In this document: in pieces, positions 4,337 to 26,482 of the stretch | Numbering within the stretch: position 1 is the stretch's first letter | How the letters are laid out: each line of letters starts with the position of its first letter | Source of the DNA: Nitrospira sp. | GTDB taxonomy: Bacteria > Nitrospirota > Nitrospiria > Nitrospirales > Nitrospiraceae | DNA: 64,000 bases | Assembly: GCA_024998595.1 (NCBI GenBank) | Contig: JACOEK010000002.1 | Location: forward strand, 372,001-436,000 | Direction: 5' to 3' | Notes under the pieces: model-generated | What the model saw: only the letters and a program-made list of their open reading frames with translations | The model's database searches: none | What the model was told of the DNA's origin: nothing | Program-made: the position numbers and the translations under genes

Positions 4337-5623
4337 CTACGAAGCCCGCGGATCTTGGGGCAGTCCGTAGGCATCGCGCACAATTTGAATGGGATGCCGG
4401 GCCGCCTTGCCCCCAACATGGGCGGCAGCCCCGGCTTGATCGAGTTGAAGCCCTGCCAGGGGACAATCGGATGCCACCATATCAGCCGGAACCTGTTCCA
4501 CCAGACGTACGGCCTTCTGCGCAATCTTCATCGAGAGCGGGAAAAATTCAGTTTTGGCTGACCAAGAGCCGTCATGACCGGAGCACTTTTCAATCACCTC
4601 GACTTGCGCGCCGGCACATTCCATTAGTTCCTTGGACTTGAACCCGATGTTTTGGTCGCGTAAGTGACAGGGCACTTGATAGGCCACCCGTCCAGGCTTC
4701 TGCGTGAAATCGGTCGCCAGGCTCCCCTCTCGCTTGAGCTTCATGAGGTACTCGCAGACATCGTAGGTACGGCCGGCCACGCGAATGGCATCTTCCCCGG
4801 CAACTAAATGTGCATACTCCCGCTTTACCATGAGACTGCAGCTGGGAGTGGGAATGACCACATCGTAGCCTTGATCGATCCAGGGTTTCAGAGACGCAAT
4901 CGTCTGCTCTGCCGCCTTCACCATCGCCGTCGTATCACCGATGTCAAAAGACGGCATGCCGCAACAAGACTGGTTCGGAAACACCACCTGTATGCCGTTT
5001 TTTTCGAGGACTTGCACGGTCGCCTTGCCAACATCGGTCGCCTGGTAGTTGACGAGGCAGCTGGCAAACAACGCGACTTTCTTGCCCGTAGCCGGTTTGT
5101 TCGCGGACGATCGCCTGGCCCACCAACGCGCAAATGTTTCGTGCTGATAGTGCAGGACCTGTCGGTCTTGATGGACTCCCATCATCGTTTGCAGGAGGGT
5201 TCTCAACCACCTCTGGCCCAACCCCCAGTTGACCAACGGGGCAAAGGCACTGTTGAGTCGTCCTAGTAGATCAGTCCTAGTCAACAACCAATCCCGCCAC
5301 CGAATCCCCCGCACCTCGGCCAACCGCTTTTTCCACACCGCCATCAACAACGGAAAATCTATCCCGTATTGATGCGGCGGCGTATAGGGGCAATGGTTGT
5401 AACAGAGCTTACAATAGTAACATTCGTCGACGACGCGATGATGATCGGCCGGCGTGAACTTCGAGACATCACTCTCGTACTCATCGATCCGGTCGAGGAG
5501 CGTGTTGAAGGATGGACAGAGATTGAAACAGCGGCGGCAGCCGTCGCAGACATCGTAGATCCGCAGCGTTTCCTGTTCGAGGGTGGCCGGATCGATCGCT
5601 TGGAGGAGACGAAGTTCTTTCAC
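4337..5623 (-). CDS. GlpC/HdrD-like Fe-S oxidoreductase with CCG domains
   Basis: 428 residues. Two 4Fe-4S ferredoxin motifs lie near the N-terminus (CDGCRRCFNLCP and CYYCKLCYNHCP), followed by two cysteine-rich CCG domains of the heterodisulfide-reductase/GlpC type (NQSCCGMPSFD in the first; a more divergent second one with VPCH and EKCSGHDGSW). Such proteins shuttle electrons between a quinone or carrier pool and a partner; with rubrerythrin upstream and DUF3501 downstream it probably supplies reducing power for peroxide reduction. The GTG start at 5623 is preceded by AAGGGA at a somewhat long distance. It is 26 bp from the DUF3501 gene, so co-transcription is likely. Confidence 0.88.
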   Translation of the reverse strand: MKELRLLQAIDPATLEQETLRIYDVCDGCRRCFNLCPSFNTLLDRIDEYESDVSKFTPADHHRVVDECYYCKLCYNHCPYTPPHQYGIDFPLLMAVWKKRLAEVRGIRWRDWLLTRTDLLGRLNSAFAPLVNWGLGQRWLRTLLQTMMGVHQDRQVLHYQHETFARWWARRSSANKPATGKKVALFASCLVNYQATDVGKATVQVLEKNGIQVVFPNQSCCGMPSFDIGDTTAMVKAAEQTIASLKPWIDQGYDVVIPTPSCSLMVKREYAHLVAGEDAIRVAGRTYDVCEYLMKLKREGSLATDFTQKPGRVAYQVPCHLRDQNIGFKSKELMECAGAQVEVIEKCSGHDGSWSAKTEFFPLSMKIAQKAVRLVEQVPADMVASDCPLAGLQLDQAGAAAHVGGKAARHPIQIVRDAYGLPQDPRAS

Positions 5624-9032: not shown

Positions 9033-9590
9033 ATGGCCAAAGAACTCCCGATCCTTCCCTCGAATGCGCAGCCTGCTGAAGGCACCGCACCCGAAGCGGT
9101 AATCTACTCTCGGGTCTTTTGTAAGAATGATAATGCGCCTCCCCTTCGCCTACTGATGGAGTTTTTGAAGTCGCGAGGGCAATCCCCGATCCTTCCTCCC
9201 GACATGGACGACTCTTTGCTGGATGAATGGGCATGGGTCCAAGTGATACTTGGATATGCACGCGAACGCAAACCGATTCAGGTATTTTGCATCCGCGATC
9301 GCGGTACGTATCAGGACCTCTTCGAGCAAGAGCAAAAACAATTTCAGGAAGACCTGTCCTCCCATGACCATCTTGAAGCGAGCCTCGCGCAGGAACACGT
9401 CACGCGCGCGCGCTTCATACTGACCACACGCATGATTGAGGCCGATGTCACGGAGGAAGGCTACGATTTCAACGGATGGATCTTGGAGTTTTTTCAGGAG
9501 CACTGTAACGGGATCGTGCAGATCGATCGGCAAGGATTTTTTTCTCCGAAGGGAGAACTCATCGTCGATCTCTCCTTGCCTGAAGAGTAG
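9033..9590 (+). CDS. Conserved hypothetical protein
   Basis: 185 residues, soluble, acidic, no signal peptide. Notable stretches are VFCKNDNAPPLRLLMEFL, CIRDRGTYQDLFEQEQKQF and a C-terminal half with YDFNGWILEFFQEHCNG. No family recognised. AAGAGG lies upstream of the ATG. It is followed after four bases by the YkgJ-type gene, so the two are probably one operon. Confidence 0.7.
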   Translation: MAKELPILPSNAQPAEGTAPEAVIYSRVFCKNDNAPPLRLLMEFLKSRGQSPILPPDMDDSLLDEWAWVQVILGYARERKPIQVFCIRDRGTYQDLFEQEQKQFQEDLSSHDHLEASLAQEHVTRARFILTTRMIEADVTEEGYDFNGWILEFFQEHCNGIVQIDRQGFFSPKGELIVDLSLPEE

Positions 9591-9594
9591 CGTC

Positions 9595-10203
9595 ATGGGG
9601 ATCGACGCACCCGCCTCGCTCCCACTTCCCTTATATCAACAAGCCTCACACTGGTTCCGACGCGCCCAGGCCTCGTTGCTGGGCGCCATTCCTTGTCGGC
9701 AAGGCTGCTGTGCCTGCTGCATCGGCATCTTTCCCATCACTCGGCTCGATGCCCTGGAATTGCACCGGGGCCTCAACCTACTACCATCCGCCCACAAAAC
9801 TGCCATCGTGACGCGCGCGCGAGCGCAGGTCGCCTCACTCGAAGCAGCGTACCCTGCCCTTAAGTCCAAACCTGGCCTGGATGAATGGGCAGACAGCAGC
9901 ATTGATGACATAGTTGAACGCTTTGCGGATCTTCCCTGCCCCGCCCTAGCCGCCGACGGAAGTTGCGGCATTTATGCGTTCAGACCAATCACCTGCCGCA
10001 CAATGGGCATTCCTGTCGAACATGATGGCATGGTCCATGGCGCCTGCAGAGTCCAGACCGCTGTCCCCATTATCCGGCCCTCGACAAGTGTACTGGGAGA
10101 TTCTTCCCGATTGGTCGAAGACGAAGCGGTTGCTTTGTCGATCCTGCGACACGCCCAGCCAGAGGCAGGTGACGAACTGCTCCTCCCATACGGATTCGTC
10201 TAG
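9595..10203 (+). CDS. YkgJ-family cysteine-cluster protein
   Basis: 202 residues from the ATG at 9595, four bases after the previous stop. The N-terminal CRQGCCACC and the later CPALAADGSCGIY...PITCR form the Zn/Fe cysteine cluster typical of the YkgJ (UPF0153) family, whose function is poorly known. The next feature is the tRNA-Arg that hosts the island, so this is the last host gene before the integration site. A second family member lies at 38798-39595. Confidence 0.85.
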   Translation: MGIDAPASLPLPLYQQASHWFRRAQASLLGAIPCRQGCCACCIGIFPITRLDALELHRGLNLLPSAHKTAIVTRARAQVASLEAAYPALKSKPGLDEWADSSIDDIVERFADLPCPALAADGSCGIYAFRPITCRTMGIPVEHDGMVHGACRVQTAVPIIRPSTSVLGDSSRLVEDEAVALSILRHAQPEAGDELLLPYGFV

Positions 10204-10270: not shown

Positions 10271-10347
10271 GCGCCTGTAGCTCAGCTGGATAGAGCATCA
10301 GCCTCCGGAGCTGAGGGCCACAGGTTCAAATCCTGTCAGGCGCACCA
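10271..10347 (+). tRNA. tRNA-Arg(CCG)
   Basis: A 77-nt cloverleaf: acceptor GCGCCTG pairs with CAGGCGC, anticodon stem TCAGC/GCTGA with loop CTCCGGA gives anticodon CCG, T-arm ACAGG TTCAAAT CCTGT, and the 3' CCA is encoded. Its 3' half is the attachment core of the island; integration has kept the gene intact on this side. Confidence 0.97.
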
Positions 10348-11503
10348 AAAAATCAAGCGGTTGTGCGAAGCTCGTTAGCGCCGTCGGTTGGTCACTCCCA
10401 GTTTTACTCCCGGTTCCAGTTTTTTCCTTCTCCCCGCTCAACGCAAACAAGCTTCCCCGATTCGCGGCGTCTCGCAGAAACCCTGGCGTCAGGTGCGCGT
10501 ATCGTTGCGTCGTCGCAATATCCCGATGGCCTAAGATTTCCTTGATGCGGTAGAGATCCACCCCGGCAAGGGCACGGCGTGAGGCGGCCGTATGCCTCAA
10601 CGTGTGCCAAGTAACGCTCTCCATCCCTGCCCGTCGCACGGCTGGATCAAAGGCACGGCGGACGAACGCCCGGCTATCCATTGGCTTGAGGATATTCTTG
10701 ACGCCAGGGAACACCCACGGGGAGCGCATGATGGAATCCCACGAGCTCAAAAGCTTGTGCGCCCCTTCGCTCAATGGGACATAGCGACTCTTTCCACCCT
10801 TCGGCATGGGCAACGCGAGCACCCTGTTTTCCAAATCCACCTGTTCCCATCGCAGTCGAAATTGTTCAGATCGTCGCAACCCGGTTTCGATCGCAAAGGC
10901 GACCATTTCCCAATCTCGCGGCTTCATTAAGTCGCGCAGCCGAGTAATCTCTTCGTCACATAAGAATCGAGTCTTCACCGCTTCGGGGAAGAATGTCACA
11001 CCCGCCATGGGATTCCGGTCTAGCTTCCCATCTTTCACGGCCAACATGAGGACATGGCGTAGGAATGAAAAGTACCGATTGATCGTCGGTGGCGCCTTGA
11101 GCCGCGTTCCCGCCGGCTTCTTCATGTCGAATCGCGCCTTCAGTTGTGCCTGAATCCTTCGCAAATCTTCCGTGGTGATATCACGAAGAGCTCGCTTGCC
11201 CAGAAGCAACGACCAGAACCGACCATACCGTTTTTCATTCACTACGCTTCGGTTGCTCGCCCCTTCCAAATGCCGCGTGATCCACGCGCGGAGAGTGATT
11301 TCCTTCGGCTTTTTGTATTTCTCTGGGAAGTACGTTCCCTCGCGGGCCTCAGCCTTCAACCTGCCATAGAGCGCTTTCGCTTGGCTTTTATTCGTCGCCC
11401 GGAACCATTTCTCCCGCCCTTGGATGGTCAAACGTGTCCACCAGATTCCAGAGCCCGCGGGCTTTTCAACAATGCCTCTATCCTTTCCGTTTTTCCGTGC
11501 CAT
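10298..11503 (-). CDS. int: Tyrosine recombinase/phage integrase
   Basis: 401 residues from the ATG at 11503, preceded by AAGGAGG; longer readings would run into the CGNR gene and add unrelated residues. The N-terminal AP2-like arm-binding part (SGIWWTRLTIQGREKWFRA) is followed by a SAM-like core-binding domain and the catalytic domain with R210 (ETGLRRSEQFRLRW), H300-x-x-R303, H326 and nucleophile Y335 (TTQRYAHLTP). The last 16 residues (LVRLTGFEPVALSSGG) are read antisense through the attL core and tRNA-Arg, and the stop lies beyond the core in host DNA. After excision the C-terminus would therefore change. Catalyses integration at tRNA-Arg. Confidence 0.95.
   Translation of the reverse strand: MARKNGKDRGIVEKPAGSGIWWTRLTIQGREKWFRATNKSQAKALYGRLKAEAREGTYFPEKYKKPKEITLRAWITRHLEGASNRSVVNEKRYGRFWSLLLGKRALRDITTEDLRRIQAQLKARFDMKKPAGTRLKAPPTINRYFSFLRHVLMLAVKDGKLDRNPMAGVTFFPEAVKTRFLCDEEITRLRDLMKPRDWEMVAFAIETGLRRSEQFRLRWEQVDLENRVLALPMPKGGKSRYVPLSEGAHKLLSSWDSIMRSPWVFPGVKNILKPMDSRAFVRRAFDPAVRRAGMESVTWHTLRHTAASRRALAGVDLYRIKEILGHRDIATTQRYAHLTPGFLRDAANRGSLFALSGEKEKTGTGSKTGSDQPTALTSFAQPLDFLVRLTGFEPVALSSGG
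10303..10348. repeat. attL core: 46-bp direct repeat in tRNA-Arg
   Basis: The 46 bases from the anticodon loop to one base past the CCA recur exactly at 26437-26482. Flanks differ on both sides (GC before and AAAA after here; GT before and TCGC after there). This is the pattern left by tyrosine-integrase recombination into the 3' end of a tRNA. Confidence 0.95.
10394..10415 (+). repeat. Integrase arm-type site candidates, attL side
   Basis: Two direct copies 12 bp apart, ACTCCCAGTT (10394) and ACTCCCGGTT (10406), about 45 bp inside the attL core. The same word occurs four times near attR at 26271-26315 in the same direction. Paired clusters flanking both core sites are what arm-binding sites of lambda-type integrases look like. 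Confidence 0.55.
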
Positions 11504-12146
11504 GTGAGGGCCCTCCTTGTTTTTGACCTTTACGTTTTGATTCCCTCCGTCTGCCTCTATTCCAATACGCGCCGGAGCATTTTGGTGAGCAGCGTTTTTT
11601 CCTCCGATTAGAAGTATCGTCAACGAACCACGTTTGACACGCAGGACATCGCCGAAAGCGTTCCCACCCCTCATCATGAAAATAGGCTTCCCAAAAAACA
11701 TCGAGCGCTTGTGCGCGCGGTGACGGATGGCATGCCGTCGTAAAAGGCACGGGAACCTTCTTCTCATCCCCGTCTTCGTCTGATGCTTTCGCATCCTCAA
11801 AATCGGTTCGCTCTGGCGGAAGCTCCTTCTTGTCGTCCCCACCGTGTGCTGTCCTCATGCGGACCTGCTGTTTCACAGGATGGGCCGCTGCTTCTCTGTT
11901 AAAACGCGCCGCCCGAGTGGCTAACGTGGGTAGAGTAAGGATCTCCTCAAGCAGCCCCCAACCATCAGCCAGAGCCGAGTAGTACCGGCGATCGCTCTCA
12001 GTCTTTGCATCAACCACTTGTTGTCGGTACTTCGGAACGTCGTTCAATCGTTCGGCCAGATTGGTCAATTTATAAAATCGCCGGTATCGACGCTGCACAC
12101 GACGCTGTTCTTTTTTATGTCCGTTTGATTTCGCCCGAACCGGCAT
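11478..12146 (-). CDS. CGNR zinc-finger protein
   Basis: About 222 residues. The C-terminal zinc finger RRCPACQTWFVDDTSNRRKKRCSPKC (cysteines at its two ends) is of the CGNR/ABATE type found in predicted stress-related transcription factors; a lysine/arginine-rich tail follows. The N-terminal half is helical and basic. ATG at 12146 chosen (AAAGGGG upstream); an ATG at 12200 is possible, but a TTGACT and GATAAT pair overlapping it suggests a promoter there. It overlaps the integrase start by 26 bases, so it probably controls and is co-expressed with int. Confidence 0.7.
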   Translation of the reverse strand: MPVRAKSNGHKKEQRRVQRRYRRFYKLTNLAERLNDVPKYRQQVVDAKTESDRRYYSALADGWGLLEEILTLPTLATRAARFNREAAAHPVKQQVRMRTAHGGDDKKELPPERTDFEDAKASDEDGDEKKVPVPFTTACHPSPRAQALDVFWEAYFHDEGWERFRRCPACQTWFVDDTSNRRKKRCSPKCSGAYWNRGRRRESKRKGQKQGGPSHGTEKRKG

Positions 12147-12266: not shown

Positions 12267-12473
12267 ATGCAACAGGAGATTAAAGAGAACGACCGACTGT
12301 TAACGGTTTTCGAGGCGGAAGCATTGACCGGCCGTAAGGCCTCAACGTGGCGCCGGGATATTCTGGAAAAGCGAATCCCGGTCGTTCGATTGGGCCGGCG
12401 ACAAGTGCGAATCCAACTTTCGGTGATTCAAAAGATGATCCGCGAAGGATTTTCGCCCGCGGTATCGCAATAG
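12267..12473 (+). CDS. AlpA/excisionase-like small HTH protein
   Basis: 68 residues with AAGGAGG ideally placed. The sequence LTVFEAEALTGRKASTWRRDILEKRIPVVRLGRRQVRI has the layout of MerR-like excisionase/AlpA domains: a helix-turn-helix followed by a basic wing. Such proteins bind att or promoter DNA and direct excision or activate satellite genes. It is the first gene of the rightward island transcript. Confidence 0.75.
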   Translation: MQQEIKENDRLLTVFEAEALTGRKASTWRRDILEKRIPVVRLGRRQVRIQLSVIQKMIREGFSPAVSQ

Positions 12474-12548: not shown

Positions 12549-14759
12549 ATGCCAGGTGAAGTGGTGGTTACTACTGACGAAAAAGCTCAAGAGCTCGCGC
12601 GTCAGGGATTCTACGTCTTTCCGTCGGCGCACAAAAAGAAGCACATCAACGGATGGCCCACTGAAGCCACCCGCGATCCCGAAAAGATTAAGAAATGGTT
12701 CGGCCCCGGAGGCACCCACGAATCGTGGAAGATATCAATTTTCACCGGCAAATTTGGGGACGATGAAGCCCTGGTGGTCGTCGACATTGATCCGCGAAAT
12801 GGCGGTGATGAGACCATCCGAGCCATAGAGGCACAGCATCCCGATGCCTTCCCTCCAACCCGTGAGCACCGCACGCCAAATGGTGGCTTACATAAGCTGT
12901 ATCGCACAAAAGGACCGGGCTTGAGATCTGTGGCCCATGCCTACGGTCAAGGCGTGGATGCTAAAAGCGCCGGCGGACTCGTGCACTTTGGGGATGGGTA
13001 TGAACTTATCCACGATCCACCCGTTGCAGAGGTGTCCCAATATCTCCTCGCTCAAAGTGAGTCGGTCGGCAGTACGAGCCGGCCTCACCCACGAGCGCAA
13101 GCGCTGCCTTCTGTAATTATTAATCAGGAGCACGCGGAGGCGCGTGCTATTTGGTACTTAGAACACGACGCCCCCATCGCCATCCAGGGGAAGGGCGGGG
13201 ATCAGATGACGTTTGCCGTTGCGGCGCGAATAAAAGACTTTGGTGTGCCAGAACAGGCCGCGACGATGCTCATGTGGGAGCACTGGAATGAGCGATGCTC
13301 CCCGTCATGGGCGCCGGACGAGTTGGAAACGAAAGTAAGAAACGCCTATCGATACAGTCAGAACCCGCCCGGCGCCGATGCCCCCGAAGTCGTATTCCCT
13401 CCTCTCAATCCACCTGCGCCGGGAGAAACGAAAGAACTCCATCCCTACGACAAGCTCAATAAGGATCACGCCTTCGTCATCGCCGGAGGTGGATCTCACA
13501 TTCTATGGGAGACAACGAATGCCGACGGACAAGAGGCCGTCGAACACCTGGACCTCGCTACTTTTAAGAACAAACTCGCAAACCAAAAAATGATGGTGGG
13601 CAATAAGACTACTTCCGTCGCAAGCCAATGGCTCGAATGGAAGGGGCGCCGATCGTATGACGGTATCATCTTCTCGCCGGGACAACCGCCAGCAGTCTCC
13701 ACGAATATCAACGGGCGCCTTAAAAAGTATTTCAACCTCTGGCGCGGCTTCGCATACGAACCCGCTCCTTCCGGCTCTTCGCATCCCTCCCTCGGTCTGT
13801 TCCTCGAACATCTCAACTTGAATGTGTGCGGAGGCTCTGAGGCGCTTTATCGGTGGCTACTCGGATTCTTCGCCCATCTCGTTCAATGCCCGGAACAAAA
13901 ACCGGAAGTGGCGATTGTGCTTCGGGGCGGAAAAGGTGTCGGCAAAACGATGGTTGCGGAAACGATCGGCGATTTGCTCGGACGCCATTTTCTCCTCACC
14001 AGTGATCGCCGCTACCTCACGGGAAATTTCAACGGACACCTTGAGAACTGCCTCATGCTCGCCTTGGATGAAGCGTTCTGGTCCGGAGATAAACAGGCAG
14101 AAGGGACGCTCAAGAATCTGATTACAGGACGAGAACACGTCATCGAACACAAAGGCAAAGAGCCGTATGTCGTCGCCAACAAAACCCGCATCATTATTTG
14201 CAGCAATGAGAATTGGGTGGTGCCTGTTTCCCACGATGAGCGCCGTTTTGCCTTCTTCGATGTGGGCGACGGACGCAAACAGGACCGTGTGTTTTTCGGG
14301 CAGATTCGCGATGGTCTGCGAAATGGTGGCTACCCTGTGCTCCTTCGCTACCTGAAGGATTATGTCTTCAGTGCCGCCGAGGTGAACACAGCGCCGGTCA
14401 CGGAGGGATTATTAGATCAAAAACTATTGAGCGACGATCCTCTGATGCAGTGGTGGTATCAGTGCCTCGTCGAAGGAAGAATCATCAAAGGCGGATGTGA
14501 AGGATGGCCGGAATGGATGGAGAGTGGGCAGTTCCAGGACGCGATGAAACGATCGGCAAAGGACCGAAACATTCAGGCGCGAAGTCCCGATCCCCGCACT
14601 TTTGGAAAACGGATGAAGCCGCTAGGTGTGGCAAATAAGCGACAGCGCGACGAGGACCGAAAGGGTCAGTTCATTCACGCCTACAGTATTCCGCCGCTCC
14701 TGGAAGCTCGAAAGCATTGGGACGCTTCTGTGGGTCAGTCGACGAAATGGGACGAATGA
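12549..14759 (+). CDS. Primase-polymerase/superfamily-3-type helicase
   Basis: 736 residues. The N-terminus is an AEP-type bifunctional primase-polymerase domain: catalytic DID at 79-81 and NGGLH with His at about 115. After a helical linker (GGDQMTFAVAARIKDFG) comes a P-loop helicase of the D5/DUF5906 kind: Walker A GGKGVGKT at about 460-467, Walker B-like LMLALDEAFW, and the sensor segment TRIIICSNENW. Such proteins melt the origin and prime replication of satellites, plasmids and phages. The iteron-rich, AT-rich region directly downstream is the likely target. The start ATG gives MPGEVVVTTDE. Confidence 0.9.
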   Translation: MPGEVVVTTDEKAQELARQGFYVFPSAHKKKHINGWPTEATRDPEKIKKWFGPGGTHESWKISIFTGKFGDDEALVVVDIDPRNGGDETIRAIEAQHPDAFPPTREHRTPNGGLHKLYRTKGPGLRSVAHAYGQGVDAKSAGGLVHFGDGYELIHDPPVAEVSQYLLAQSESVGSTSRPHPRAQALPSVIINQEHAEARAIWYLEHDAPIAIQGKGGDQMTFAVAARIKDFGVPEQAATMLMWEHWNERCSPSWAPDELETKVRNAYRYSQNPPGADAPEVVFPPLNPPAPGETKELHPYDKLNKDHAFVIAGGGSHILWETTNADGQEAVEHLDLATFKNKLANQKMMVGNKTTSVASQWLEWKGRRSYDGIIFSPGQPPAVSTNINGRLKKYFNLWRGFAYEPAPSGSSHPSLGLFLEHLNLNVCGGSEALYRWLLGFFAHLVQCPEQKPEVAIVLRGGKGVGKTMVAETIGDLLGRHFLLTSDRRYLTGNFNGHLENCLMLALDEAFWSGDKQAEGTLKNLITGREHVIEHKGKEPYVVANKTRIIICSNENWVVPVSHDERRFAFFDVGDGRKQDRVFFGQIRDGLRNGGYPVLLRYLKDYVFSAAEVNTAPVTEGLLDQKLLSDDPLMQWWYQCLVEGRIIKGGCEGWPEWMESGQFQDAMKRSAKDRNIQARSPDPRTFGKRMKPLGVANKRQRDEDRKGQFIHAYSIPPLLEARKHWDASVGQSTKWDE

Positions 14760-14783
14760 TGCGTCAAAGGCCCGAAAGGCTAC

Positions 14784-15086
14784 GATTGTGCCGGTTGTTC
14801 CGGTCGCCCCTTACACAATCGGAACAGCTAAACGCCGCTCTGGGAGCTGGTGTGCCGATTGTGCCGGACATTCCGATCATTTTTGCCCCGGTTGGCATGG
14901 GGGAGAGTATAGCGAGGAGCACGCCGCTACTCGGCCACGGGGGAGAGTTAAGAAAGATATGAATTCTATAACTCTTAAAAATAACCGGCACAACCGGCAC
15001 AATCGGAACAACCCAATGGACATGCGGGGTTTGGCTGTTCCGATTAAAAACTCCACATCGGAACAAAAGGGGCCTAATCGGAACAG
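14784..15086. other. Iteron cluster flanking AT-rich DNA: candidate replication origin
   Basis: Eleven exact copies of the heptamer CGG(A/C)ACA in either direction: reverse at 14787, 14796, 14851, 14860 and 15036; forward at 14820, 14986, 14995, 15004, 15059 and 15079. Several are spaced exactly 9 bp apart, and 14984-15010 is a threefold tandem of 9-mers. The left and right groups surround an AT-rich stretch at about 14947-14984. Position directly behind the primase-helicase gene and this architecture match satellite and plasmid origins. No convincing gene runs through it. Confidence 0.65.
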
Positions 15087-15599
15087 CGATGGCAGACGTG
15101 TCATTTTTACAACGTCCTGTTTACGGGTAAAGGCGGCGGCCCCTCGTGCGACTCCGAAATCCCCCGGCTGGATGATTGCCCTCTCTCCCGTAGCCCCGGA
15201 AGGCCGCTGGACCCCTCAAGACGATCCAATTCAGCGGAGTCTAGCGTCAAACATGGGAGCGAAACCGGGAGTGGAAAAGGGGCGTCCAATGGAACCCGTT
15301 GATAGCCGGCCATTCTCTGACTGCAGCCCTCAGTCTAGGTGTCTGGTTCCTGTGGCTGAGAGAAGGAATGCCAGGAATCAGATGCCCTATCGATCTGAAC
15401 GGCCAATGAATCAACGATTCCTTTTGATACCGGGGATGGCATGCCGGGTGGGGGGCCCTTTTCGACTGTCTGTGTCCACGATCGGTACCTGTGCACGATG
15501 TCTGTTTAATTTTTGAAACAAGACGCCATAAATTTTTTGAAAAATAGACATTTTCCGTAACTCGCCACCCCAGAACCTCAACAGAAAGGAGGACAGACG
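15087..15599. other. Non-coding stretch behind the origin candidate
   Basis: No convincing gene. At 15255-15272, on the minus strand, lie two adjacent words ACTCCCGG and GCTCCC matching the arm-type repeats near attL and attR. The last bases hold AAAGGAGG, the ribosome site of the gene at 15600. Confidence 0.4.
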
Positions 15600-15821
15600 A
15601 TGAACCAAGACCCGGCACTAGCCAGAATCGAGGAGAGTAACAGGCTGGCCGAAGAGCGCGCCCTCGCGGGGCTTAAGGCCGCTGGGGATGCATTACTCGC
15701 CAAGCCACGCAGCCCCACGGCAAAACGGAATTATCGCAATGCCCAAGCGAAACTGGCGGATGTGCGTGAATTCAGCCAAACGCTACTCGATCACTACCAC
15801 GCCAAACACGGCAAATTGTAA
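15600..15821 (+). CDS. Small helical island protein
   Basis: 73 residues, highly charged and almost certainly all-helical (NRLAEERALAGLKAAGDALL, then KRNYRNAQAKLADVREF). AAAGGAGG sits at the right distance before the ATG. No family recognised. It heads a tightly spaced run of four genes to 17554. Confidence 0.65.
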   Translation: MNQDPALARIEESNRLAEERALAGLKAAGDALLAKPRSPTAKRNYRNAQAKLADVREFSQTLLDHYHAKHGKL

Positions 15822-16445: not shown

Positions 16446-17108
16446 ATGGACGAACTTACATTGAAGACAAACCCAAATCCCAGCGCCCCTGATCCGGCCC
16501 CCAATGGACAAGAAGCCTCGAGCCTGGAGCACACGACGGTTGCTAACTGGCTACAGGAAGATTTCAACGCGGGCAAATTGACAGCCGACGAGTTCGCCAC
16601 GGCCTTAGAAGAATTAAACGGCAGCGATGACACGCAAGGCCCTGATACGCGCACGGAGTCACAGAAGGAGCATGACGCCAGCTTTCCGCCGGCCAAACCA
16701 GAACACTACACCTTCCCACCCGCTGCCCCTGGCGAACAGATTTCATCCGAGATACGCGCCGCCGAAATGACGACGCGTACCTGGTTATCAACGGCGCTCT
16801 TTAGCCGCGAGCATGGAAGCGCCTTGGCCGCTGAGGTTGATCGCACGGCCCGAAGAATCGAACACTTCACTCCCGCACAGCATGAACTCTTCGCACGGTC
16901 GGAAAGGCTCGTCCTAGAGAAGGTGTGGGGCGCGGAGACGCAAAAGAATCTGTCGATTGCCAAGGCCTTCGTTCGAGAAGTGGCCGAGAAACATCCGCAG
17001 ATTATTGATTTCCTCAATCAAACAGGTTTGGGGAATTCGTCAGGGGTGATCATCGGGCTTTATCACCAGGCCGAACGGCTAGCGGCCCGGAATGGCGACT
17101 CGCTATGA
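16446..17108 (+). CDS. Phage scaffold-like protein
   Basis: 220 residues: a low-complexity Pro/Asn N-terminus, a short helical segment, then PAKPEHYTFPPAAPGE and a helical C-terminal half with LEKVWGAETQKNLSIAKAF and FLNQTGLGNSSGVI. The PEHYTFP element, WGxxxxxNLxxAK and the tGLGN near the end recall capsid-assembly scaffolding proteins of tailed phages. No capsid or portal gene is present, so it might redirect a helper phage capsid; this is inference. It overlaps the terminase-like gene by four bases (ATGA). Confidence 0.55.
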   Translation: MDELTLKTNPNPSAPDPAPNGQEASSLEHTTVANWLQEDFNAGKLTADEFATALEELNGSDDTQGPDTRTESQKEHDASFPPAKPEHYTFPPAAPGEQISSEIRAAEMTTRTWLSTALFSREHGSALAAEVDRTARRIEHFTPAQHELFARSERLVLEKVWGAETQKNLSIAKAFVREVAEKHPQIIDFLNQTGLGNSSGVIIGLYHQAERLAARNGDSL

Positions 17109-17554
17109 AAACGTCTCAGGAGATGAAAGAAGCACGCTATGCGGCGGGCATTATCAAAGGCCTCACCAAAAAGCAGGCGGCGATTGAGGCGGGTTTCTCC
17201 GTCTCTGTCGCCGAGCATTCCGTGAGCAAGATCCATGAAAAGCCCGCGGTGCAGGCAGCCATTGAGCAAGCCCGGACGGAGATCCGGGCGGCCGCCGTGT
17301 ACGATCATGCGCAGGCCATGGCAGAAGCCGGTGAGGCGATTGCATTCGCGAAGAAGCACGGCAACTCCATGGCCCTTGTCAAAGCCATCGAGTTGCGATC
17401 GAAGCTGTCAGGCCTGCTGATCGATCGCGCAGAGGTCAAGGTTGCGGTGGTCGATGTGCGCGCGGCTCTTCAGGAAGCAAAGGCGCGGGTTCGGAACTGG
17501 AATGGACATCTCTCACTTCAAGGGCCCGCCTATGTAGACCCGCTTTCGGAGTAG
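17105..17554 (+). CDS. Terminase small subunit-like protein
   Basis: 149 residues. KGLTKKQAAIEAGFSVSVAE followed by a conserved helix (KIHEKPAVQAAIEQARTEI) is the DNA-binding HTH layout of the Terminase_2 small-subunit family, which recognises pac/cos sites. The C-terminal half is helical, in keeping with oligomerisation. No large terminase follows. A lone terS is a hallmark of phage satellites that redirect the packaging of a helper phage. Translationally coupled to the gene before it. Confidence 0.65.
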   Translation: MKTSQEMKEARYAAGIIKGLTKKQAAIEAGFSVSVAEHSVSKIHEKPAVQAAIEQARTEIRAAAVYDHAQAMAEAGEAIAFAKKHGNSMALVKAIELRSKLSGLLIDRAEVKVAVVDVRAALQEAKARVRNWNGHLSLQGPAYVDPLSE

Positions 17555-17946: not shown

Positions 17947-18854
17947 ATGCGCCAGTTGAAGTTCACCGAGACCAAAATGGTGTCGATTTTGAAAGGAGCC
18001 GATGCTCAGCGCCCGGTCCACTACAAGTGGAAAGCCAAGTACGGTGGTCTGGAAGCCTCGGAGGTGAAGCGACTGAAGCGGGCTTGCCACGCAGTGAGTT
18101 GGGACGAGCAACGTACTACCGGCCGCTCAGGGACTGGGCTCGGCGGGCTGCGCCGGTGATCGCGGCGTTGACGACGCTCGTCGCGGCGAAGAGTCGCTGG
18201 GGCTTTTGGAAGTGCTGGGGGCGACTCCGATTGGAGGGACATCGGTGGAATCACACGCGCCTCTGGCGGGTGTACTGCCAGCTCCGCTTGAGTCTCCCCC
18301 GTCGGACGAAGAAGCGGCTCTCAGCTCGTCTGCGACAGCCGTTGGGCGTGATTCCGTACCCGAACGCCGTTTGGGCCGTGGACTTCATGAGTGACACTCT
18401 GTACGGCGGCCGACGATTCCGGACGCTGAACCTGCTGGATGAAGGCGTGCGGGAAGGCTTGGCGATTGAGATCGATACGTCGCTCCCGACTGAACGCGTG
18501 AATCGCGTGCTGGAGCACATCGTGAGCTGGCGGGGCCAGCCGCAAGCGATTCGGCTCGATAATGGCCCGGAATTCCTCGCCGACCGGTTCATCACCTGGT
18601 GTGCGGAACGGGCGATTCAGCTGTGGAACATCCAACCGGGCCAGCCGGGTCAGAATGCCTTGATTGAGCGGTAAAACCGGACCTATCGGACCGAATTGCT
18701 CAATGCATATGTGTTCGAGTCGTTGGATCAGGTGCGAGAGATCAGTGCCGAATGGGTGCAGAGTTATAATGAAGAGCGGCCCCATGACGCGTTGGCGGGC
18801 CTGCCGCCCCCCCCACGTATCGAGCCCAAGTGGAAGCCAGAAATTCTCGCATGA
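17947..18854 (+). pseudogene. IS3-family transposase remnant
   Basis: The N-terminus of orfA is present (MRQLKFTETKMVSILKGADA ... WKAKYGGLEASEVKRLK), then the sequence jumps straight to the middle of orfB in another frame (GRATYYRPLRD), with the leucine zipper and the start of orfB missing. The DDE residues are visible (VDFMSD, DNGPEF, ALIER), but a TAA at 18672-18674 replaces the Phe codon usual in ERFNRTYR; the frame then continues to 18854. An internal deletion plus nonsense change make it inactive. Terminal inverted repeats were not recognised. It separates the satellite-like core from the GTPase operon. Confidence 0.85.
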
Positions 18855-19045: not shown

Positions 19046-21124
19046 TCAAGTTGACATCTTAACTCTACGAACAAACTCCCCACCTCCTTCAACCTTATTC
19101 GCACTCCGAATAATTTCCTGGAATAATTGATTTTTCATATTTACGTAGCGGATTTTGCTAGGAGGCCACTCGAAGCGTACGAATGCCATAACAAGACCTC
19201 TACGGAGACGTTCGCATTTATCCCAATTGGAAATCCAGGACAGTTCGGGCACGAATGGCTCAACTATCATCCAAGCACTATCGGATAAGGATTCAGTCCT
19301 TGCAGCCTCATGGACGCATTCAAAGGATTCTGAAAGTAGATCCAGGGGAGATGGTTGTGCGTTGCCAAGAGCCAGCGCCAGCAAGAATGCGCTAACATAG
19401 TTAAGTGATTTTTCGTCGCCGGCGCTTTTCAGATTACGAAATGCGGATAGCCACATGGCTGTGTCGTCATGCAGGATGCTTGTAACACTAGGCGCAACGA
19501 TGCGTACAAGTGCAAAAAGGCTTCTGAATGAGGTTATTTCTGTATTTTTAATCCACTCTATCACCGGCACAACGTGCGATTGCAGTGCGCTTAAGCACGT
19601 TTCTGGCGGCGGACCATTATGGGCCGTTAACCAGTCAAGCACTCCAAATACAGCATCTTTGCCCCATAGGACCAGCGCCCGAGATACTAAATAGTCGGAC
19701 TCACTGTCTAAGATGGCACGAGTAATTTTTTTTATTAGTCCGGCATCAAGATCTTTATGAGAAGCAATTGCTTCAAAAAGCTCTCTTTTTCGACCACCGC
19801 CTGCTCTCCACAATTCGGACGCTGAAGCCAGGCTTGGATTCGCCCTAAAGAGAGCGGGCAAAAATCTCAACTGATTTTTTGTGACCTGATATGCTGTCTC
19901 TGGTTCGATGCAGGAAATTAGTCCGGCAATTATTTCTTCGCCCAAAGGATTTAAATTTGATTGGAACAATTGAGTAATTAGCCAATTGCCCGCGTTTGGA
20001 TGCTTTTCGAAAAGTTTTCCTCCTCGACTCCTTAAGTTTAGTTCGACCCCATTGAAACCTAAATATTTATTTGTCGTGCCCAATGCAAAAAGAATATCTT
20101 GTTCTTCATGACTTGGCGCAATAACATCATTACTCTCTCCGTTAAATAGAAACTGCTTAAGAAAACGCCCCATTCTTGGTTCAGGAAAAAGTTCGGCTAC
20201 TAAACTAATAAGATCCACCGTTCCTATCCGCTCATTTAGGGCTTCAAAGATGCGGACGTAGGAAACGAAATCTGTTCTTTGGCTCTTCTCATCCGATACG
20301 CTCCATAAAAATCTCCTAAACGCCCCTCCCTCTATTTTGGATGCATCCTTAGATGCTTCCAAGGCCCAGGCCGGGATATTGTGTGTTCCAGAATTCGCCA
20401 CTACCGGATCTGACGAGCCAACACTTTTCATGTCGGTCACTATCTCGCGTGTTCTAGCTTTTGGAACGCACAGAACATCGAAGGGATGCTTGTCGAACGT
20501 TCGCGCGGAGAGAGCGCCTGTGCAGAATGTAAAATTCATTCTGAGATGCGGCCACATTTGAGACCAGAGAGAAAAAACGATATTTTCGTACTCACTTGAG
20601 GTCTTTGCGGCAAGTATTATGGGAGTACTATCTTTCTGATAGTGCAGGGACAGGATTACCCCCATAAGATCAGATGGGAGAGGCGTTGATGCCTCGAACA
20701 GATGCTCCTCTTTCCAGTGAAAGGACTTTGTGTATGAACCTGTAGGAGCGTCCAGTCCGGGCCGCTTGAACAACTTTTTCAGACCGCCTAAAGACCTGAT
20801 CAGAGCCATTGCTACTTGCGGTACCACGATCGTATGTGTCCAAACACAGCCCGGCCTTGGCATTTCCGGGGCATACCAGGTCTTCGCCAGTGCATATGCA
20901 TTAATTGACGTTAGGGGATATCCTGTAATGTATTCCTCAAACCCCGGCGCCATGTTGGTACCTGAGATGTCGCTTAGTCGAAGAACTGACCTGCTAAGGT
21001 CATCAGGCAAGTTAATTGAGCATTCCAGAAGCCGATGGCCGTTAGCGTAACCATGTAGAAATTGATGGAGAAGAGGAGGATCGACTTCAGCAGCTGAGGC
21101 TGCGTTTTTTAATGCATTAGCCAT
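19046..21124 (-). CDS. GAP1-like GTPase-associated protein
   Basis: 692 residues, last gene of the GTPase operon. The N-terminal region begins LLHQFLHGYANGHRLLECSINLP, the (Y/G)xxGHRLLaxS signature of the GTPase-associated protein 1 N-terminal domain, and continues with VWTHTIVVP. A long, mostly helical remainder without catalytic motifs follows. In predicted conflict systems GAP1 always accompanies one or two double-GTPase proteins and is thought to regulate or be regulated by them. Its ATG overlaps the preceding GTPase gene by 16 bases. The coding sequence is visibly AT-richer than the host genes around the island. Confidence 0.75.
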   Translation of the reverse strand: MANALKNAASAAEVDPPLLHQFLHGYANGHRLLECSINLPDDLSRSVLRLSDISGTNMAPGFEEYITGYPLTSINAYALAKTWYAPEMPRPGCVWTHTIVVPQVAMALIRSLGGLKKLFKRPGLDAPTGSYTKSFHWKEEHLFEASTPLPSDLMGVILSLHYQKDSTPIILAAKTSSEYENIVFSLWSQMWPHLRMNFTFCTGALSARTFDKHPFDVLCVPKARTREIVTDMKSVGSSDPVVANSGTHNIPAWALEASKDASKIEGGAFRRFLWSVSDEKSQRTDFVSYVRIFEALNERIGTVDLISLVAELFPEPRMGRFLKQFLFNGESNDVIAPSHEEQDILFALGTTNKYLGFNGVELNLRSRGGKLFEKHPNAGNWLITQLFQSNLNPLGEEIIAGLISCIEPETAYQVTKNQLRFLPALFRANPSLASASELWRAGGGRKRELFEAIASHKDLDAGLIKKITRAILDSESDYLVSRALVLWGKDAVFGVLDWLTAHNGPPPETCLSALQSHVVPVIEWIKNTEITSFRSLFALVRIVAPSVTSILHDDTAMWLSAFRNLKSAGDEKSLNYVSAFLLALALGNAQPSPLDLLSESFECVHEAARTESLSDSAWMIVEPFVPELSWISNWDKCERLRRGLVMAFVRFEWPPSKIRYVNMKNQLFQEIIRSANKVEGGGEFVRRVKMST

Positions 21125-22350
21125 TGAAGAGGTTCAGTAATATCGTGAGGATTGATGACATGCCGTCCATTTAGGAATGTTCGTCGAGCGGGGTGTTTTT
21201 GATGGAGATCTAAGATAGCTTGGTCGTATTGCTTTTCTCTGGAAATATTCAACGGATATGCATCTTCTAGGAGGCAACGATTAAGCCGCAGAACATCTTT
21301 TTCCGACTGGTAGTGCCTGTTTGCAAGCAAATCTTTGGTTTCCCCGCGCAGATGAAACTTCGCAAAGCGTTCCTCCTCGTACATGCCTGCTTGCGAAATA
21401 ATTTCATTAAATCTTTTCGCCAACCGGGACGATACTTGATTAGGATCTGAGGTTTTATCTTGCAACAGAGCTTGTGCAGCATCTCCGATCCGCCCCCAAA
21501 GCCATGCCGACAACTTATCGCCTCCTTTGGACAAGATTTCCACTAAGTCCTGAGGAGATTTGAAATCAGTCGGCAGAAATTGTACGGCCGCGTAACGCCC
21601 CCCCTGAGCACTTAGGCCGTAATAGGCAACTTCGAAACTAGTCCTATTTGAGGTGAGATACTGGTTAAGAAGTGGAAGTTCACTCGAGATCCAGTCATCG
21701 GGAGATTTTGATGTTGCCCCTATCAGGTCCCACGCTGAAATAACAACTGCAAGCCTAAATGGAGGTGAGAAATAATCGCGACCAGCAATAATCTGCAATA
21801 ACTCCACGAGCTGTACTTGAGTTGGCGCCTTCTCTACATCCCAAGGCTTCACTAATGACTGTGCGAGATCTGGCTCGCTAACCTCACTCGCGCCTTGAAT
21901 TCCTTCTATAATCTCGGTCAGAGCATTGAGGCTATCAGTACGATGTGGCTTCAACACGTTATCTGGATGGATGAATAGTATGCAGCCATTCGAATGGCGC
22001 AACAGAGCATCGTACTTAGTCGTGACTTGTCGTGTCGCCCACTGTGATGTGAACGATTCACCTGAAAGATCCGGGAAGGTGAGCCTTAAGATTTTCTGTG
22101 TTTGTTGATCCTCTAATAACATTGAAACTTCGATTTGAGATTCCAATCTTGTTCTGGGTACTGACTGATATTCTAGCCATGCATCCCGAATAAGATTTAA
22201 GTAGGAGCTGTCACCTTCTAGCCTTTCAAGCTTGAGCGCGCACTTAATGTCAGATTGATTGACCATATACCAAAGAGCTGCGAGAAAACTTGTCTTGCCC
22301 GCGCTAGGCAACCCAATGAGTAAGAATTGATTCGATGGTACATTGGTCAT
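21109..22350 (-). CDS. P-loop GTPase, double-GTPase type 2-like
   Basis: 413 residues from an ATG that overlaps the previous stop as ATGA; the open frame extends further upstream but only through the other gene. Walker A is GLPSAGKTS at about 13-21, Walker B/switch FPDLSGESF at about 92, and VVISAWDLIG supplies an NKxD-like specificity motif (SAWD). This matches the second member of the paired TRAFAC-like GTPases described in predicted NTP-dependent conflict systems. It probably acts with the type 1 partner as a switch that senses invasion. Confidence 0.75.
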   Translation of the reverse strand: MTNVPSNQFLLIGLPSAGKTSFLAALWYMVNQSDIKCALKLERLEGDSSYLNLIRDAWLEYQSVPRTRLESQIEVSMLLEDQQTQKILRLTFPDLSGESFTSQWATRQVTTKYDALLRHSNGCILFIHPDNVLKPHRTDSLNALTEIIEGIQGASEVSEPDLAQSLVKPWDVEKAPTQVQLVELLQIIAGRDYFSPPFRLAVVISAWDLIGATSKSPDDWISSELPLLNQYLTSNRTSFEVAYYGLSAQGGRYAAVQFLPTDFKSPQDLVEILSKGGDKLSAWLWGRIGDAAQALLQDKTSDPNQVSSRLAKRFNEIISQAGMYEEERFAKFHLRGETKDLLANRHYQSEKDVLRLNRCLLEDAYPLNISREKQYDQAILDLHQKHPARRTFLNGRHVINPHDITEPLQWLMH

Positions 22351-23324
22351 GATTTCTTTGCTGTTTCGAAGTGACGTTGACCGAATAATTCGCTTTCTCG
22401 TGATCCAGAGAATCCCGCACTGAGCTTCATTGATCGAACGCGTGGACAGACGGTGACCCATTGATTGAGCAAAATACCCACTCCCTTAGCAAATCCTAGG
22501 TTAGGGGCTTTTGTGGGGCGCGAGGCAACTTCCCTAAACTGAAGATGTCGAGTTCGTGACTCGAAATCGCTTTGAAATCTCGTCATAACTTCATCACGAA
22601 ATTCTTTATGCTCTTGCTTGTCTCCGGCCTCGACAAAATAGTCAAACTTGGACCAGACAATGTGGATGACGCAATCACGCCTCAACATTCCGCTGTCAAA
22701 ACAGGATCGTAGAAGGGTTCGTGCGCCCTCGACCATTACCCAACGTTTTTCAAAGCGTAAAGCCTTCTCACTGTCTAGCAACATCACAAAATGACTAGCT
22801 CGTCGCAGAAATTTCAGTTCTTTGCATGCTTCCGTAGAATTGGAAGCATACTCAAACATTTCCCCGGACACATCGGTAAAAAGTAAGTCCTTGCAGCTTC
22901 GCTTCGTTGTGGAAGAACACACTTTGAGATGAAGATAAGTTGGAGGATCGTATGGAGTTCTGGCCGTGTCCGGTTCAGGAATATCTGAAATCATACGTGA
23001 AAGATGACATCGTTCCTCAAGGGCAGGTAACGTGAGCGACTCTGCAAACAAATGGTTTTCAACACAGCCCCACTGAAAAAGTTCGTAGAGACTCGTTAGT
23101 AGAGTTGTTTTTCCTGAACCCACTGGTCCAGCAATGACTACCCACTGAACTGGCTTTGAATATGCCAGCGCTATTGCACTGGTTTCAGTCAGTTCCTTAC
23201 CACGATGTACATCAATAAAGTCTGGAACAGCTGCCTCCGACGTGCCTTTAGCAGTGCCACCAGTCTTAGCTTGAGCATTACCGGAAGCATTAGGATTCAT
23301 AGGATCGTGAGGAGCTTCGCTCAT
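22347..23324 (-). CDS. P-loop GTPase, double-GTPase type 1-like
   Basis: 325 residues starting MSEAPHDPMN, four bases after the preceding stop. A low-complexity N-terminus of about 55 residues precedes Walker A GPVGSGKTT (66-74). Then come FTDVSGEMF as the Walker B/switch-II region and HIVWSKFDYF with SKFD in place of NKxD. The set is that of a TRAFAC-class GTPase. Tight coupling to the second GTPase implies a heteromeric pair, as in the named double-GTPase systems. Confidence 0.75.
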   Translation of the reverse strand: MSEAPHDPMNPNASGNAQAKTGGTAKGTSEAAVPDFIDVHRGKELTETSAIALAYSKPVQWVVIAGPVGSGKTTLLTSLYELFQWGCVENHLFAESLTLPALEERCHLSRMISDIPEPDTARTPYDPPTYLHLKVCSSTTKRSCKDLLFTDVSGEMFEYASNSTEACKELKFLRRASHFVMLLDSEKALRFEKRWVMVEGARTLLRSCFDSGMLRRDCVIHIVWSKFDYFVEAGDKQEHKEFRDEVMTRFQSDFESRTRHLQFREVASRPTKAPNLGFAKGVGILLNQWVTVCPRVRSMKLSAGFSGSRESELFGQRHFETAKKS

Positions 23325-23328
23325 GATT

Positions 23329-24348
23329 TCATTTACATTCTTTCCATGAGCGGCATAATATTGCCTCACGGAAAACCTGGTGAGCGAGTAGGTGAGGCGC
23401 TATAGAGGCGCTAGAAGATATGCCAGTCCCTTCCTCGTAAAAGGGCAGCCAAGAGGTTTTACCACTCGATTCTAAGGACAGTTTGACTCCTTTTCCAATA
23501 GGGAGAAGGTCTTGCAGTTCTGATGGGCAGTTTGTCTCAGCGAATTTTTCACGCCACTCCCTAGGCGTAGTGTTAATTGCATCTTTCAGACTCACGGATG
23601 CCGGCAGGCTTCCTTTTGCACACCTAATGATGCGGTCGAGGAACGCTGCGGCCGCAACGGGACCAGGGATTTCGCGCGTTAGATCAGCAAGTTCCTTTCC
23701 GGCCACTATGGCAATCACCGCCGCCGTGTATTTATCCCATCGTTGTCTCAGATCCCTACTGAATTCTGAAAAAAGCCACCACAACATGTTGCTTTCTTCT
23801 GTTACTACGGCAATCTGCTTCTGCATCCTTCGAAGCTCGAAGACCAGATTTTCATAAGGTTTCCCTAAACTTAAGAGTTCCTTGAACATCTCGCCGGGTA
23901 TTTCTTCTCCAAGCTCGTCTTCATCTAATCGGATACGGTCGCTTGACCTTTGCCCCAGATGGTCTGCGGCTATTTCAGGAATATCGGGAACGCATGGGGA
24001 AGATCGTAGATTCTCCGCAGCGGCTGAAACTAAAGACAGTGCAGCAAGGTCCTTCAATTTGGAATTAGATCGCTCCATGACATCGACCAATTCTGCGCCT
24101 GCAAGCAGCGATAATTCATACTCATTATTTCGTATATGAAAAAGAGGATCAGAATCTTGGAACGGCTTCACAAACCCCGACAAAAAGCTCTCATTGGGCT
24201 TACCTAAACGATAGAAAAGACGTGTCAGCGAAATTACACCGTCTCGATCCGGTGAATACGCTTCAATGGCCTTCCAGCGTTTGGGTAAAATATCTGCGTT
24301 AGGCGGGATATTCGCTACCCTGTACCATTCGGCAAAATCATCATGCAT
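23329..24348 (-). CDS. GTPase-associated adaptor-like protein
   Basis: 339 residues from the ATG with GAAGGA seven bases upstream. Mainly helical, without catalytic motifs; it starts MHDDFAEWYRVANIPPNADILPKRWKAIE and ends with a small beta-rich segment (SGKTSWLPFYEEGTG). Its fixed position between an effector-like gene and the two GTPases fits the GTPase-associated adaptor domain proteins of these systems. The family call rests on context and general shape more than on a motif. Confidence 0.6.
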   Translation of the reverse strand: MHDDFAEWYRVANIPPNADILPKRWKAIEAYSPDRDGVISLTRLFYRLGKPNESFLSGFVKPFQDSDPLFHIRNNEYELSLLAGAELVDVMERSNSKLKDLAALSLVSAAAENLRSSPCVPDIPEIAADHLGQRSSDRIRLDEDELGEEIPGEMFKELLSLGKPYENLVFELRRMQKQIAVVTEESNMLWWLFSEFSRDLRQRWDKYTAAVIAIVAGKELADLTREIPGPVAAAAFLDRIIRCAKGSLPASVSLKDAINTTPREWREKFAETNCPSELQDLLPIGKGVKLSLESSGKTSWLPFYEEGTGISSSASIAPHLLAHQVFREAILCRSWKECK

Positions 24349-24362
24349 GGCATATCCTTCAA

Positions 24363-25301
24363 TCAAGGCACCTGAAAAGGGTTATTTCCGATTTCGCCGT
24401 CCGAGTGGTTTGCTTCGACTAGCTGCCAAAGCTCTGCAAGCTTACCGGCTGCCCTCGCCCTCTGAAAAATAAGAGCAAATTGTTCAACGAGAGGCTTTCC
24501 ACTGTCTTCTTCCGTCCGAAGGCCAAGCGTATGGGAGACCTGATATTGCAAGTGATACGGCAGCTCAAGAAATCTGTACGCTAGTCTGCGAGCTGGGCTA
24601 AACACTGCGGTTTTGCTTCCTGTCAAAGGAGGATTTTCCGTTTCCGCCCGATAAATTTCATCGCGCGCGATGACGGTCGTGCTATCCGGCTGCTCCCAAC
24701 TCTTCTTCATAACTTCCATAAATTGCAGGAAGTTACTACGAGGAGCATAAATCAAATCCTTGACTGAATCCAACTTTAGAACACGTTTGTAGAACGAGCA
24801 TGAACTGGAAGTAGCCTCACCCCAAATTGCGTCGCATTCAAACCGTTTAGCCACAGAACTGAGAAAATAGAGGAGAGCGGAGCCTATACCCTTCACTTTA
24901 CGGACGTCTTCGTTCGGGGGACTAAGGATGAGAGGGTGAATTGTAAGATAATCTAGAATGATGCTATTGCTCCAAGATCTGCGAAAATGTGATATCCCAA
25001 TTATTTCAGAGGCTGAAAACCAATCGCACTTCAGGACTACAAAACACGCCACCTCGCCCTGAGGATCATCTGTGAGGAAATTCTGAATATCTTCAAGGCT
25101 GCTTGCATACTGTTCCAGGGCTGAATGTGCCTCAAACCTATGCACCGCAATCTCCGCTAAGTCTACAGCATCGATTCTCGATGAATTTTGGTCCTCGCCA
25201 AGTGATTCCCGCCACTTTCGTATAGCGGAAAAATCCTCTCGCTGAGCGAATACTACCTTCGCCGTAAGCCCAATCTCAGTCGATCCAATCGGAAGGTTCA
25301 T
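24363..25301 (-). CDS. GNAT-like protein with C-terminal helical adaptor module
   Basis: 312 residues, first gene of the operon. The middle has GNAT acetyltransferase features: a beta strand SIILDYLTIHPLI, the acyl-CoA-binding turn-like VKGIGSALLYFLSS, and ATSSSCSFYKRVL as the last helix/strand. The final 80 residues (RRLAYRFLELPYHLQYQVSH ... FQRARAAGKLAELWQLVE) form a small helical module resembling the effector-associated, death-like adaptor domains that link effectors to NTPase switches. It is therefore a candidate effector or signal-producing enzyme of the GTPase system. No good ribosome site precedes the ATG. Confidence 0.6.
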   Translation of the reverse strand: MNLPIGSTEIGLTAKVVFAQREDFSAIRKWRESLGEDQNSSRIDAVDLAEIAVHRFEAHSALEQYASSLEDIQNFLTDDPQGEVACFVVLKCDWFSASEIIGISHFRRSWSNSIILDYLTIHPLILSPPNEDVRKVKGIGSALLYFLSSVAKRFECDAIWGEATSSSCSFYKRVLKLDSVKDLIYAPRSNFLQFMEVMKKSWEQPDSTTVIARDEIYRAETENPPLTGSKTAVFSPARRLAYRFLELPYHLQYQVSHTLGLRTEEDSGKPLVEQFALIFQRARAAGKLAELWQLVEANHSDGEIGNNPFQVP

Positions 25302-26315: not shown

Positions 26316-26436
26316 GTTAGTCTGTCTCAATCGTAATTAATCACCCTCTCGCCCCTCATTTTTCACTTGTTTTACGCGAGGTAGGTCGCTATCCTTCGCA
26401 TTCAATCGTTCTTCGTGGTACCTATCTCCGAAGAGT

Positions 26437-26482
26437 CTCCGGAGCTGAGGGCCACAGGTTCAAATCCTGTCAGGCGCACCAA
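26437..26482. repeat. attR core: second copy of the 46-bp repeat
   Basis: Identical to 10303-10348. It reproduces the 3' half of tRNA-Arg without its 5' half, so it is not a functional tRNA. It marks the right end of the island, 46 bp before tRNA-Lys. Confidence 0.95.

Follow-up and report, generated by a model that had tools for sequence, protein, structure and literature searches.

SaPI Rep and SCCmec Cch2 are described, in the sections of PMC7581432 that deal with these proteins, as using their C-terminal domains to recognise iterons located immediately downstream of the genes that encode them, and the same sections give the plan of the SaPI origin as an AT-rich element flanked by repeats and placed directly 3' of the primase-helicase gene. 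In the record of the satellite P4, crr starts 45 bp 3' of the alpha gene and comprises two 120-bp repeats, whose type I repeats, TGTTCACC/A, occur in both directions and include 9-bp-spaced pairs; the annotated origin is a separate site, 9086-9809, whose repeats are of type 1 and type 2. For pRN1, the passages of PMC4234260 on its replication describe a 100-bp element 3' of the PrimPol-SF3 gene that is required for replication and is called a stem-loop without iterons; gel shifts and footprints reported there gave no specific binding by the homologous protein, and BIP-1/BPP-1 is said to resemble this stem-loop element. Bipartite iterons with a 9-bp period behind this primase family were not found in the open-access text of PMC, and may be in print elsewhere.

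The locus analysed here, 14784-15086 of a 64-kb stretch of Nitrospira sp. DNA (the window, meaning that whole stretch), resembles the SaPI origin and SCCmec Cch2, as far as the cited sections describe them, in having iterons directly downstream of an initiator-helicase gene: the array begins 27 bp past the stop codon (Table 1). Eleven copies of CGG(A/C)ACA, hereafter CGGMACA, had been noted within about 300 bp, in both directions and with three groups phased at 9 bp, and this was borne out by eleven exact copies at 14787-15085 on both strands, with the 9-bp phase held by the groups 14787/14796, 14851/14860 and 14986/14995/15004. The genome-wide count on which the original prediction depended also favoured it, as the 1700 copies in 4,234,307 bases correspond to an expectation of 0.12 per 303 bp, and elsewhere in the window a 303-bp interval never contains more than two. 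Across 2000 dinucleotide shuffles of the array stretch the maximum was likewise two, and the Poisson probability of at least eleven heptamers in 303 bp, a post hoc figure, is approximately 2e-18. A strict detector that is blind to the word, requiring an exact 7-mer tandem (period 8-12) and the inverted copy of that tandem 30-260 bp away, was satisfied once in the 64-kb window, at 14851/14986, and in none of 30 shuffled windows.

The two arms form a 34-bp imperfect inverted repeat with 79% complementarity, each composed of AAAAAT and three 9-bp units, of which one in the left arm is degenerate. The AT-rich element is the AT-richest 36-mer of the surrounding island (rank 1 of 16,147). Repeats on both sides of an AT-rich stretch behind the primase-helicase gene are therefore present as had been proposed, except that this stretch adjoins the right arm and does not lie midway between the arms.

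Table 1. Features of the array and of the island around it, in window coordinates.
Feature	Coordinates	Strand	Remarks
attL	10300..10348		3' part of tRNA-Arg (tRNA 10271-10347)
Tyrosine integrase	10298..11842	-	profile matches
AlpA-like HTH	12267..12473	+	HTH_17 below Pfam cut-off; PHROG excisionase/regulator; weak
Primase-helicase, 736 aa	12549..14759	+	Prim-Pol PF09250, DUF5906 PF19263
CGGMACA copies	14787-, 14796-, 14820+, 14851-, 14860-, 14986+, 14995+, 15004+, 15036-, 15059+, 15079+		strand given after each start
Outer left iteron pair	14787..14802	-	TGTGCCG-gt-TGTTCCG, 9-bp phase
Single iteron	14820..14826	+	CGGAACA
Left arm	14851..14884	-	exact iterons 14851, 14860 and degenerate third CATTCCG (14869-14875); ends ATTTTT
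AT-rich element	14949..14984	no strand	83% AT; candidate unwinding element
Right arm	14977..15010	+	AAAAAT, then CGGCACA-ac-CGGCACA-at-CGGAACA, 9-bp phase
Three outer right iterons	15036..15085		15036 (-), 15059 (+), 15079 (+)
Small-terminase-like gene	17105..17554	+	PHROG 51, E 1.2e-8; Pfam Terminase_2 just below cut-off
Cargo: GTPase-associated system, five genes	19046..25301	-	GAP1-N1, DO-GTPase1, DO-GTPase2, GASH, GAAD
attR	26434..26482		49-bp copy of the tRNA-Arg 3' part, 98%

The array lies in an integrated element of 16.2 kb between the tRNA-Arg attL and attR. With a length inside the 10-20 kb of satellites, an integrase, att repeats and a replication module, the element looks like a satellite at the sequence level. 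No capsid or tail gene was present among the searched ORFs, which are part of those in the island, and no family-A DNA polymerase was found among its ORFs of at least 150 aa. The island also contains a TerS-like gene, identified by sequence match alone, and small genes without family matches; the cargo genes gave no match in PADLOC, and a search of the host genome for a helper phage returned no candidate. Remnants of an IS3-family transposase are present in several frames at 17947-18854.

The predicted model of the 736-aa primase-helicase has a mean pLDDT of 87.7. The DUF5906 match (E 7e-22) identifies an SF3-type helicase, and the model matches the NrS-1 helicase region (Z 27.4) and SaPI5 primase-helicase structures (Z 19.2), whereas its N-terminal part matches the PrimPol domain of pRN1 (Z 13.3). 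The satellite setting claimed in the prediction is supported both by the make-up of the element and by this SaPI5 match of the helicase part. When modelled alone, the last 141 residues are predicted to form a helix-helix-strand-strand-helix arrangement (pLDDT 86.8) that is winged-helix-like, the domain spanning approximately residues 619-728. Its matches to known winged helices are weak (best Z 5.3; NrS-1 C-terminus Z 5.0; best Foldseek E 0.02), and P4 alpha is absent from the VIA-align lists for this domain, an absence that proves nothing. The C-terminal domain is presumed to be the iteron binder.

Taken with the described systems, these features suggest that 14784-15086 is the origin of a satellite and is bound by the winged-helix-like C-terminal domain of the element's own primase-helicase, a reading to which we assign a probability of about 0.72. 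The element would excise before replicating from this site, and the C-terminal domain of its PrimPol-SF3 protein would bind the CGGMACA iterons. The arms, inverted and each in 9-bp phase, could then hold a pair of helicase rings face to face; the 36-bp AT-rich element next to them would melt, and the helicases would open the bubble. Priming would fall to the PrimPol domain and extension to a polymerase of the host or of a helper phage, because the element is without a DNA polymerase of its own. The array is a well-supported candidate for an origin of the known P4 crr/SaPI ori kind. P4 is likewise a satellite with repeats in both directions directly behind its primase-helicase gene and a word beginning TGT, but differs in the word itself, in the pair of 120-bp repeats and in its separate annotated origin. 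SaPI5 provides a primase-helicase whose fold resembles that predicted for the window protein, with a different iteron. The SaPI-type architecture put forward in the original prediction therefore holds as a plan shared with the SaPI origin and P4 crr, 'SaPI-type' itself being an analogy, and the nearest geometric match found is not SaPI but the phage family described below. As a concrete and short sequence, the array gives this satellite-like island a candidate origin.

The same iterons had been expected behind homologous primase genes, and here the closest relatives did not agree. Class A, the near-full-length relatives of the window primase at 34-56% identity, comprises 49 of 68 loci after L162 and L207-L224 (partial) were left out, and 48 of these were examined, L186 being too short downstream. 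None of the 48 has an array behind the primase according to the strict detector. In the count of words, just two loci exceed every one of the 100 shuffles, namely L203 and the window; the L203 word, AGAAAT, has seven copies in one direction without 9-bp phasing. Of the 49 class A loci, 42 encode a family-A DNA polymerase, among them every one of the 40 for which 3.9 kb or more of upstream DNA was available. On a phylogenetic tree, in which every class A row bears the label 'pol' irrespective of whether a polymerase was observed there, the window falls within class A and groups with L157 and L187 (100/99). Given this placement among relatives that lack arrays, an origin at the locus requires either a gain here or losses elsewhere. 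Since the relatives carry a polymerase and the window element does not, a satellite without a polymerase seems to have gained the array or retained it; the simplest account is a gain in that lineage, the alternative being that every sampled relative has lost it. Relatives that carry a polymerase and have no array, set against polymerase-less elements with one, suggest when a replicon may need an iteron origin.

Among 14 annotated phage and plasmid records with more distant primases, six have at least seven copies of one 6-mer, a count reached by at most 1 in 200 shuffles of the same six, and controls gave 2 of 13 upstream and 1 of 12 far from the gene. The strict detector passes two of the 14. 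The generalisation that an array always follows such primases was rejected on these figures, and L134, a full-length relative at 38.6% identity, has no passing array.

Iterons in this position are common only in a more distant family, mostly with other words. Class B, a Toprim and DUF5906 helicase family found by protein search, was represented by the best 80 of 550 loci, of which 79 were kept (L262, which is cut, was left out) and 78 examined (L299 is too short). It was seeded partly by primases first found via the CGGMACA word and holds near copies, so that dereplication at 97% leaves 56 of 76 proteins. At least seven copies of one 6-mer are present within 500 bp past the primase stop at 77 of the 78 loci, compared with 1/62 upstream, 2/72 at 1.5 kb downstream and 2/78 in coding controls at the same threshold, and the count beats all 50 shuffles at 72 of 78. 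The strict detector passes 62 of 78 loci, against 0/210 control stretches and 0/390 shuffles. The arrays most often hold 10-13 copies, six inverted and six direct, in 9-bp phase, with the inverted arms flanking an 80-120 bp spacer. No family-A DNA polymerase is encoded at any of the 79 loci.

Class B members from temperate phages such as Stenotrophomonas phage S1 (gp1) therefore resemble the window in having an array directly 3' of a primase-helicase gene, 9-bp phasing and inverted arms, and some share the CGGMACA heptamer. The window differs in its eleven less regular sites and AT-rich element, as opposed to the usual six plus six, and its primase begins with a PrimPol domain, whereas class B has Toprim; the two fall in separate clades. 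Class B words vary by lineage (CCGCACA, CTCACA, TGCACA, CTTCAC, GTCTCA, GGGACA, CGGCACA and others), with ACA inside 69 of 77 consensus words. Word sharing follows C-terminal identity, with a partial correlation of 0.41 given the N-terminal part that none of 500 permutations reached; the reverse test, for N-terminal identity given the C-terminus, gave 0.10 (56 dereplicated proteins). Because the word tracks the primase C-terminus, a protein-DNA code is directly testable by domain swaps. Annotated or open frames cross phage arrays at L147 2454-2804 (e.g. S1 gp2) and at other class B loci.

The word itself is a poor guide. A tandem CGGMACA search of viral contigs returned at least 120 stretches, in most of which the repeats run in one direction and are coding (PEQ and GTS-type proteins), and a linker-specific pattern returned 16, the new ones again mostly coding. 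CGGMACA alone was accordingly rejected as diagnostic, and only mixed-direction arrays or matches of the inverted-tandem detector were kept. At 11 of 19 mixed-direction loci singled out, a primase gene ends 8-54 bp before the array; at the other eight, a primase was not seen within the DNA stretch examined. Mixed-direction CGGMACA without a primase found nearby was recorded at L017, L046, L067, L068, L072, L091, L100, L106, L338, L339 and L340; such loci may be orphan origins, or the gene may lie outside the stretch. A single-sequence search of the viral contigs with the window primase gave no match.

Array-less class A relatives, together with the use of CGGMACA by phages with unrelated C-termini, favour a different reading, in which the iterons are borrowed and read by a helper-phage initiator, so that helper infection amplifies the satellite. 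A genome of the same host family (G063) contains a prophage-like region (L363) with two CGGCACA and three TGTGCCG at 4694-4790, where a DUF3631 helicase gene has its 3' end; an S78 protease and TerS follow. The same word beside an unrelated helicase keeps the idea of a helper initiator in play, but the arms there stand in the opposite order to those of the window. Furthermore, the window array sits behind the element's own initiator gene, as in self-recognising systems; no class B primase was found in the host genome besides the window's own helicase match; and the triple-iteron pattern is confined to the window in 197 genomes around the host (absent from the 196 others), just as a 371-bp query of the array DNA matched only one of 148 genomes (none of the 147 others). 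A borrowed origin is judged unlikely on this balance. Still less probable is an array of operators, in which the heptamers would be sites for a transcription regulator, such as the AlpA-like protein, controlling the downstream genes. The array occupies a long non-coding interval ahead of small genes and includes single sites as well as sites in both directions, which would suit such a role, but no sigma-70-type promoter-like site is present in 14600-15700 and the word follows the primase C-terminus in related phages. Usual operators have far fewer sites than eleven accompanied by an AT-richest element and inverted triplets, which also counts against this reading.

The annotated P4 origin lies away from crr, and by that precedent the array could be an accessory site for copy control or incompatibility with the true start elsewhere in the element. 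This is improbable, slightly more so than operators, given that the strict detector picks up only this array in the island and the window and that the AT-richest 36-mer of the element is located at the array. The phased heptamers might instead be part of a coding sequence, as is the case for many CGGAACAGC arrays of viral contigs, which run in a single direction and encode PEQ repeats. An open frame of 296 aa runs across the window array, although 28 of 200 array shuffles also keep a frame open, and in class B a forward ORF runs through the array at 71 of 77 loci compared with 126 of 231 shuffles. However, the window heptamers are in mixed directions, and Pfam, PHROGs and the phage collection contain no homologue of the ORF; a conserved protein encoded across the array, which would have spoken against the original prediction, was thus looked for with no match in these three sets. 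Differences among class B arrays are spread evenly over the codon positions (594/731/667, from 56 non-independent pairs), and coding constraint is therefore not evident in them. A coding repeat is the least credible of these explanations, with very little probability left to it. The reading of the array as a satellite origin bound by the element's own primase-helicase is preferred.

pRN1 combines PrimPol, an SF3 helicase and a winged helix, as the window protein would with its predicted winged-helix-like domain, and has its essential element just 3' of the gene; the sequences of the described stem-loops extend the likeness. In the arm 3' of the primase gene, pRN1 (L324) has TGTCCA twice at 9 bp, BPP-1 (L323) has GTTTGCCTC twice at 9 bp, and pHEN7 has TGTCAC twice at 9 bp, whereas the pRN2 and pDL10 arms have no tandem of a 5-mer or longer. 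Among 20,000 uniform random 33-mers, 80 contain a 6-mer tandem at 9 bp. Inverted arms with 9-bp tandems are therefore common to the window, pRN1 and Bordetella phage BPP-1, with only two plus two copies in the latter two against eleven sites in the window. It is suggestive, as a pattern in the letters of three out of five replicons, that stem-loop arms of the pRN1/BPP-1 type are 9-bp iteron tandems.

A single plan, of inverted 9-bp-phased iterons with a usual TGT/ACA edge 3' of an SF3 primase-helicase gene, might unite the window satellite, a large family of temperate phages, P4 crr and the pRN1/BPP-1 'stem-loops', which would then be two plus two iterons and not structural signals. The helicase C-terminal domain would set the variable half of the word, and a satellite lacking a DNA polymerase, whether by loss or from the outset, would have gained such an origin within a phage lineage that is without origins of this plan. 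This synthesis is tentative and we hold it with less than even confidence, yet the wider rule and the reinterpretation of pRN1 would be of more interest than another member of the known P4 crr/SaPI ori kind. The word-blind rule can pick out candidate origins behind genes for SF3 primase-helicases even where the repeat word is not known beforehand. If the pRN1/BPP-1 'stem-loops' are indeed two plus two iterons, a simple experiment could address a published disagreement on the type of origin.

Other arrays were observed behind replication genes in genomes related to the host. GTTTCC or GTTGCC arrays of 22, 12 and 9 copies, alike in layout and often spaced at 11-12 bp, lie right behind a Toprim-type gene at L310, L311 and L320, respectively, in the same order or family; the L310 gene encodes Toprim and AAA_25. 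In another genome of the same order (G128; L318/L011), a primase-helicase gene matching the helicase of the window is directly followed by three GATAGG copies spaced at 11 bp, and additional GATAGG copies are present in both directions.
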